Below, piece by piece: positions 18,381-44,702 of a stretch of DNA of 64,000 nucleotides. Source of the stretch: Oribacterium parvum ACB1. GTDB lineage: Bacteria > Bacillota > Clostridia > Lachnospirales > Lachnospiraceae. Each line of letters opens with the position of its first letter. Position 1 is the stretch's first letter. The notes beneath the pieces are model-generated. The model worked only from the letters and a program-made list of their open reading frames with translations, ran no database searches and was not told where the DNA came from. Location: positions 1,856,501 to 1,920,500 of the forward strand of contig NZ_KE148312.1 of assembly GCF_000238055.2 (NCBI RefSeq), given 5' to 3'. Made by a program: the position numbers and the translations under genes.

Positions 18381-18593
18381 AAAAAGGGGCTGTAAAAAAT
18401 TAAAATAATAAAGAGATTCTTTGCAATATAGGTCTGAATGCGGGGTAGTCTGAGCCCGTCGGCACTTGCGAAAAACAAGAGAAACGCAGTTTTTCGCTTA
18501 GTATCCGTTACGTGGCGAAGCTAGCGAGAGCGTGCCCCAAGTTCAGACCTATATTGCTTAGAAAATTATTTTAATTTTTTACAGCCCCTTTTT
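18381..18593 (+). repeat. Palindromic dispersed element, copy 1
   Basis: Perfect 29-bp terminal inverted repeats (18381-18409 and 18565-18593), then perfect 16-bp inner inverted repeats (18423-18438 and 18542-18557), enclose a 97-nt core (18442-18538) that begins GGGG and ends CCCC. The core contains a 9-bp hairpin GCGAAAAAC/GTTTTTCGC. The core is shared, in opposite orientation, with the element at 44405-44609: about 61 of 71 positions match in one block and 23 of 25 in another. The outer arms are not shared. The right arm ends in ACAGCCCC followed by six T, so the outer stem also looks like a terminator for the preceding gene. No coding capacity is seen. Confidence 0.85.
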
Positions 18594-44354: not shown

Positions 44355-44702
44355 AAAATGGATATCAATACAGGATGTATTTCTTGTTTGTGGATATAGT
44401 AACAGGGGCACGCTCTCGCTAACCTCGCCTGACTGAGCATGGGCTCAGTAGCCCATTGCTCACTTTGCTTCGCAAAGCAACTTCCTTCAGAAGTTGGTCT
44501 TGTACAGTACAACTTTTCTGAAGAAAAGTTTGTCCTTTCGCAGCGGATACTAAGCGAAAAACTGCAGTACCTTTGTTTTTCGCAAGTACCGGCGGGCTCA
44601 GATTACCCCTTGTTCCCATATCCACAAACAAAGAAATGATTCAGTTCTATTGTTTATATCCAATTTTTATAAGCCTGTAAGAGTATAGAGAGGAAATTTG
44701 TA
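44355..44702. other. 348-nt intergenic region with palindromic element copy 2
   Basis: No gene is seen. Nearly all of it is the structured element at 44380-44636, described separately. The last 60 nt are ordinary AT-rich sequence with the miaB ribosome site. Confidence 0.75.
44380..44636 (-). repeat. Palindromic dispersed element, copy 2, with hairpin array
   Basis: Imperfect outer inverted repeats of about 28 nt (44380-44408 and 44606-44636, sharing TTTGTGGATAT and its complement) enclose a core (44405-44609) that matches copy 1 in reverse orientation. Compared with copy 1 it has an extra segment of about 108 nt (44429-44537) made of consecutive hairpins: 44432-44449 (or alternative 44439-44456), 44463-44477, 44479-44495, 44500-44512 and 44511-44530, each with a perfect 6-8 bp stem. 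The conserved 8-bp hairpin CGAAAAAC/GTTTTTCG is retained. The outer arms differ completely from those of copy 1. No coding capacity is seen. Confidence 0.8.

Follow-up and report, generated by a model that had tools for sequence, protein, structure and literature searches.

ERIC, a long palindrome, readily undergoes internal deletions that the palindrome itself induces. ERIC and the other MITE-like repeats of enterobacteria are described as mostly intergenic and present in tens to hundreds of copies per genome, with a number that varies by taxon (PMC10969869). In BOX of Streptococcus pneumoniae (boxA-boxB-boxC) the two outer modules may enclose an inner one, which is optional and whose folding is largely independent; repeats are found inserted in one another, and a terminator-like sister repeat, SPRITE, lies close to the 3' ends of genes (PMC3049150). 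RAYT proteins are reported to recognise hairpins of single-stranded DNA (PMC3733652).

The stretch of DNA analysed here (the window, 64,000 nucleotides) spans contig positions 1856501-1920500 of the 2.47-Mb genome of Oribacterium parvum ACB1. It contains two copies of a palindromic repeat that we call R1, one short (copy 1) and one with a second repeat, R2, nested in its core (copy 2):

44384-44408, plus strand: left arm of R1 (copy 2), 88% complementary to 44607-44631
44409-44429, plus strand: conserved 5' core block of R1 (CACGCTCTCGCTAACCTCGCC), also present in other genera
44430-44537, plus strand: R2, the nested 108-nt hairpin module, present in 17 of the 39 R1 copies of this genome
44431-44433 with 44497-44499, plus strand: closing stem of R2 (GAC/GTC, 3 bp), enclosing hairpins 1-3
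44434-44462, plus strand: R2 hairpin 1, from family-wide R2 comparison and folding
44463-44477, plus strand: R2 hairpin 2 (CTTTGC/GCAAAG), from comparison of R2 copies
44478-44496, plus strand: R2 hairpin 3, from comparison of R2 copies
44506-44536, plus strand: R2 hairpin 4, with a perfect part at 44511-44530, from comparison of R2 copies
44538-44609, plus strand: conserved 3' core block of R1 with helices P3 and P4 (P4 is 44554-44562 with 44575-44583)
44607-44631, plus strand: right arm of R1, which shares the last CCC with the 3' core block
18386-18588, minus strand: copy 1, a short R1 without R2, with outer GGGGCTGT/ACAGCCCC arms (R1 match at 18424-18556)

Copy 1 (L040) corresponds to C1:1874886-1875088 of the genome. 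All 39 R1 copies match at 12 or 13 of the first 13 nt of the 5' core block, and the core motif is common to several genera. The left and right arms vary in sequence from copy to copy and keep their complementarity; between genera both the arms and helix P2 differ yet stay complementary. Over positions 1-64000 of the window no Rfam family reached its gathering score and no tRNA was found, and the three Rfam matches around the R1 element (E 0.46-2.9) all fell under that score.

An earlier note on this DNA had drawn attention to a segment of about 108 nt between the core blocks, filled with small hairpins more densely than chance would give and absent from copy 1. The position, the density and the absence from copy 1 all hold, with an exact span of 44430-44537. 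Folded as DNA, the plus strand of R2 reaches -28.1 against a shuffle mean of -11.7 (z = -7.24), and as RNA -40.9 against -24.5 (z = -4.92); none of the 200 dinucleotide shuffles used as control equalled it in either test, and R2 beats its shuffles on either strand, as DNA and RNA alike. The wider region 44370-44650 has a folding z of -6.6. The arrangement as five consecutive hairpins stands only in part. Judged on 24 nested copies (17 from this genome and 7 from O. sinus), the stems at 44463, 44479 (44478-44496) and 44511 belong to the family, while those at 44432 (ACTGAGC/GCTCAGT) and 44500 (TTGTAC/GTACAA) are private to the window copy, each being present in 1 of 24. The family design is rather a 3-bp closing stem around three hairpins, followed by a longer fourth hairpin (44506-44536), and the pairing at 44439, which had been described as a mere alternative, is part of a genuine family hairpin at 44434-44462. 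The R2 stems do carry the compensatory changes by which the note had proposed to judge them, with pairing-preserving two-sided changes at 10 of 38 predicted pairs (alignment A2, 11 sequences) and the types GAGCATGGGCT/AGCCCATTGCTC, GAGCAGTGGTT/AACCACTGCTC and GAGCAGTAGTC/GACTACTGCTC.

R1 and R2 are both multi-copy families, R2 being optional within R1 and found outside it as well. BLAST in the O. parvum genome gave 41 anchored matches, and after removal of L020 and L041 as repeats of L028 and L019 there are 39 distinct R1 copies, of which 17 contain R2 and 22 do not. A covariance model made from R1 sequence with R2 left out gave 65 matches at E up to 0.1, or about 57 places once eight matches that are second halves of long copies had been joined; one match is partial. 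The same repeat has 135 matches in O. sinus (G200) and occurs in 5 of 17 genomes of the genus (O. parvum, G200, G201, G207 and G212) and in 64 of 200 family genomes, O. parvum included, which is about a third of the sampled genera (64/199). A phylum sample gave 5 of 398 genomes at E up to 1e-5, four of the five Lachnospiraceae. In named genomes the exact R1 pattern was found in at least 120 stretches; the 80 matches listed are titled mostly as Lachnospiraceae or as genera of that family. The other titles among the matches listed are Selenomonadaceae, Veillonellaceae, Anaerovibrio, Mogibacterium and, for one MAG, Muribaculaceae, and a few of the genomes listed are titled as Negativicutes. Of the 80 listed loci, 74 were carried forward. 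Viral contigs, searched with one exact pattern, and plasmids and phages, searched with one probe, gave no R1 match.

The R2 covariance model has 23 matches in the O. parvum genome, of which 17 lie in R1, four are credible copies outside it (L020, L074, L075 and L076) and two are marginal. At the level of the family it was found in 2 of 200 genomes, a count in which weak matches may be lost with the filters used: O. parvum and G153, a different genus with six R2 copies, all standing alone, in which the R1 search gave no match. A repeat family with free-standing copies, both in this genome and in another genus, does not agree with the suggestion of a designed RNA or DNA scaffold. As an optional module inside the element R2 is supported by its presence in 17 of 39 R1 copies and by seven strong matches in 1.2 Mb of O. 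sinus; 'expandable', the other word used for it, does not apply, since each of the 24 nested copies read has a single unit.

Compared by architecture, the closest known kind of R1 is that of BOX-like modular interspersed repeats. The likeness, which concerns architecture only, lies in an interspersed, structured repeat with an optional module between two core blocks. However, boxB comes in variable tandem numbers and target duplications are reported for BOX, whereas R2 is single in all 24 nested copies read and no duplication was seen for R1; R2, moreover, is a free-standing family in another genus. With ERIC, R1 shares a mostly intergenic location and similar copy numbers, but its arms are conserved in complementarity only, not in sequence, and the host group is another. 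REP/RAYT sequences are likewise high-copy palindromes, but R1 is much longer and four R1 genomes have no match to a Y1 transposase. A literature search with partial coverage returned no description of an R1/R2 repeat. The safest label is a modular interspersed palindromic repeat, apparently undescribed, in which a second repeat is nested; we file it under neither BOX nor ERIC.

With moderate confidence we take 44384-44631 for a copy of R1, and R1 for a non-coding interspersed palindrome of the chromosome, similar in kind to BOX and ERIC. An independent R2 is nested in this copy, and both repeats would have spread as non-autonomous elements. They would move via folded single-strand or cruciform DNA with the help of a putative mobilising enzyme. 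The arms would be kept matched by the need to fold, by template-switch (quasipalindrome) correction or by both, and not by RNA function. R2 would have entered R1 in an Oribacterium ancestor and then passed between R1 copies by recombination; alternatively, it may have entered the same R1 site repeatedly. A more far-reaching version, which we consider unlikely, would make R1 and R2 two classes of new single-strand DNA mobile element, with the core recognised as a folded hairpin, the arms rewritten at each site by templated copying (so that sequence is free and near-exact complementarity is kept) and R2 a hyper-parasite targeting one position of the R1 core.

Many R1 sites differ between the two Oribacterium species. 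When 53 distinct O. parvum copies were compared with 1.2 Mb of O. sinus, the two flanks lay together there for 17 of them; 11 of these sites are without R1, one has a core-deleted remnant (L111) and five have a match, which is not necessarily the same element. The R1 site of the window is among those empty in O. sinus. The comparison yielded no clean empty site with exact ends, the intergenic DNA being too diverged. Movement of R1 is thus inferred from copy number and site differences, because no target duplication, clean empty site or mobilising enzyme was found, and these three absences weigh against the reading that we prefer. A further point against it comes from G101 (L133-L143), where R1 lies in a longer common sequence, which for some pairs of copies reaches up to 185 nt upstream and more than 300 nt downstream and makes for a larger repeat unit in that genome.

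Several loci showed other arrangements. Where O. parvum has copy L114, another palindrome stands in O. sinus (L370:6344-6615), possibly of a further repeat family, and at two other places where O. parvum has R1 (L365:748-1600 and L362:16168-16963 in O. sinus) there are small gene pairs that look toxin-antitoxin-like by eye. Three tandem R1-like cores with a common intervening sequence occur at L334:5330-6010 of O. sinus. The O. parvum copy L013 (378288) has one flank in common with L012 (1463207) and the other with L011 (1113003), for a few hundred bp each, and from these flanks it looks as if it had recombined or were part of another repeat.

Gene context was scored with genes called by a simple ORF rule, leaving out the copies that overlap a large ORF (7 of 73 at named loci and 2 of 43 in O. 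parvum); the 73 named-locus copies, our 'other genera' group, include six from O. sinus. In O. sinus convergent gaps make up 22 of 61 gaps with an element versus 51 of 510 others (p = 5e-7), and divergent gaps 8 of 61 versus 78 of 510, which is no difference. The 43 distinct O. parvum copies, with L018 and L120 counted as one, comprise two that overlap an ORF, 17 in ++, 15 in +-, 9 in -- and none in -+ context, that is, 15 convergent and 0 divergent among 41 scorable. At the named loci there are 9 convergent and 10 divergent (n = 66). The O. parvum genome also has intergenic, terminator-like short hairpins made of the outermost arms only (GGGGCTGTAAAAAATC and close variants) and flanked by A/T tracts. 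Core-less hairpins of the GGGGCTGTAAAAAATC type are at the following places:

L043:959-1000
L044:1273-1320
L048:1736-1780
L054:1812-1855
L055:1382-1427
L056:1022-1066

Sequence of the GGGGCTGTAAAAAATC type also forms the outer arms of many R1 copies of this genome. Three hairpin sites retain remnants of the inner arms, so at least those three are deletion derivatives. In Oribacterium the outermost GGGGCTGT arms, together with their A/T tracts, probably also serve to terminate transcription at the 3' ends of genes.

The arms of R1 keep Watson-Crick complementarity while their sequence changes. Over 89 copies there are 1019 two-sided cells against 298 after shuffling, and 93.9% of cells are paired against at most 43.4% when the pairing is slid, figures that lean toward pairing because this alignment was fitted to the model; the MAFFT alignment A1 shows two-sided change at 24 of 39 pairs, with 97 two-sided cells versus 29 shuffled. 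G-U is scarce: the two outer helices have 20 such pairs among 965 paired cells, and the entire structure has 83 among about 3006; in the stems of 21 tRNAs of the loci it takes 31 of 448 paired cells, a count that has no A-C because the program permits none. Much of the G-U in R1 falls on two inner pairs, one in P3 (20 of 88 cells) and one in P4 (12 of 62), and this use of G-U speaks against the preferred reading. In a test without any advantage for G-U, isolated mismatches in the arms of 255 distinct copies comprise 56 G-U, 76 A-C and 83 transversions; the corresponding numbers are 18, 21 and 56 for P2/P3 and 3, 4 and 35 for P4. By group, one of four ('other') leans to the minus strand in the arms (9 G-U versus 24 A-C, p = 0.01), and an earlier arm test on a looser alignment gave p from 0.04 to 0.9. 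At the loosest setting the arms have 138 G-U versus 200 A-C (p = 0.0009), a slight minus-strand lean, and tRNA stems, a small sample, 7 versus 1. R2 leans to the minus strand too (0 versus 6). The lean could mean that the minus strand is the folding strand, and it too goes against the preferred reading.

These counts bear on the possibility that R1 functions as a structured RNA, in a 3'UTR or in trans for instance, R2 then being an accessory domain at the periphery of that RNA. Covariation is strong, as such an RNA would have it, the unpaired motifs GGCACGCTCnCGCT and TACTAA..AAGTACC are conserved across genera, 32 of 41 scorable distinct O. parvum copies follow a gene of the same direction, and the slight minus-strand lean also agrees with it; strand-specific conservation of core motifs could indeed mean RNA function, which counts against our own reading. 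However, a preference for G-U over A-C on the folded strand, expected of a functional RNA, was not found on the plus strand of the arms, P2/P3 or P4, and at the loosest setting the arms behave differently from tRNA stems, small as the tRNA sample is. The orientation bias is not seen at the named loci (26 of 66), there is no Rfam match and many sites are not common to O. sinus, so that we regard this explanation as rather unlikely. With arms that are complementary and G-U that is rare and no more frequent than A-C, the data agree better with palindromes at the DNA level than with a functional RNA. If imperfect palindromes were corrected by template switching, near-exact covariation would arise without RNA selection. 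As far as these tests go, R1 looks like a palindrome maintained at the DNA level.

The earlier note had suggested a transposase as a possible partner. Neither of the two families sought fits throughout: a Y1 transposase (PF01797) is present in some but not all R1 genomes, and an IS1595 transposase was found in none of ten. IS200/IS605-like or REP/RAYT-like single-strand transposition, with a Y1 (HUH) enzyme in trans, would account for the hairpins, for R2 ends in G153 without an inverted repeat and for the lack of duplication, and O. parvum has four full-length Y1 genes and G153 pieces of them. Y1 matches were found in 6 of 10 genomes, but four R1-bearing genomes gave none (G142, G180, G151 and G129, with completeness of 94, 100, 72 and 86%, two of them thus below 90%), and the IS200 ends in O. 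parvum and G153 look unlike R2, for which reason IS200 was rejected as its source. We consider this route unlikely.

We find it improbable that R1 is a DDE-type MITE, that is, an internally deleted insertion sequence with GGGGCTGT ends, such as IS1595. Terminal inverted repeats, a feature of MITEs, are there as complementary arms in O. parvum, O. sinus and other genera; GGGGCTGT ends are found in the O. parvum copies and in G142 and G061, and ISApl4, of the IS1595 family, has GGGGCTGTACTAGA ends (PMC12561309). But none of 18 copies (16 from O. parvum, 2 from O. sinus) has an 8-bp duplication at the level of at least 7 of 8 identical flanking positions, mean identity being 0.26, and alignment of the arms gave no convincing duplication either. 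No IS1595 transposase was found in ten genomes, G151 and G101 have different ends, and beyond the arms there are A and T tracts as in a terminator. No autonomous element with GGGGCTGT ends was recognised in 15 O. parvum regions outside R1, which are short hairpins, another R1-like copy or single ends. A 12-bp repeat in G151, considered as a duplication, appears to belong either to arms or to longer flanking repeats, and was discounted.

Judging from its junctions and copies, R2 is a separate element from R1, nested at one core site. All seven strong matches in O. sinus (60 stretches of 20 kb, 1.2 Mb) are nested in R1, their sites agreeing to within one or two bases. Across the 24 nested copies the left junction is constant, after CGCC or a base or two away, and the right one varies slightly: CCTT leads into ACGTA, or straight into GCGG or similar sequence. 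The short-form junction CGCC/ACG is identical across copies of several R1 subtypes. Types I and II of R2 are each found in several R1 subtypes, so that subtypes reassort, and R1 subtypes A, A2 and B also occur in short form; R2 must thus have been exchanged between R1 copies or have entered repeatedly. In G153 five of the six R2 copies span approximately TATGACTTC to CTAT or TTAT, the sixth being without the first bases, and no inverted repeats were found at their ends. That the long form is instead ancestral, R2 being part of the original element and short copies its deletion products, is highly improbable: deletion at the palindrome centre does happen (L042, L046, L047 and L358 of O. sinus), but R2 is in 2 of 200 family genomes versus 64 for R1 (although filters can lose weak matches), it stands alone elsewhere, and the short junction is uniform across several subtypes.

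Among the genera of the family that were sampled, about one in three has R1; two Oribacterium genomes have dozens of copies each, and R1 has no match in Rfam. With R2 lodged at one fixed site, it shows plainly how one repeat can sit inside another. The near-exact Watson-Crick covariation of the R1 arms, in which wobble pairs are few, comprises hundreds of natural cases. These data bear on whether maintenance of a DNA palindrome, and not selection on RNA, can yield covariation, which matters for the calling of RNA families.
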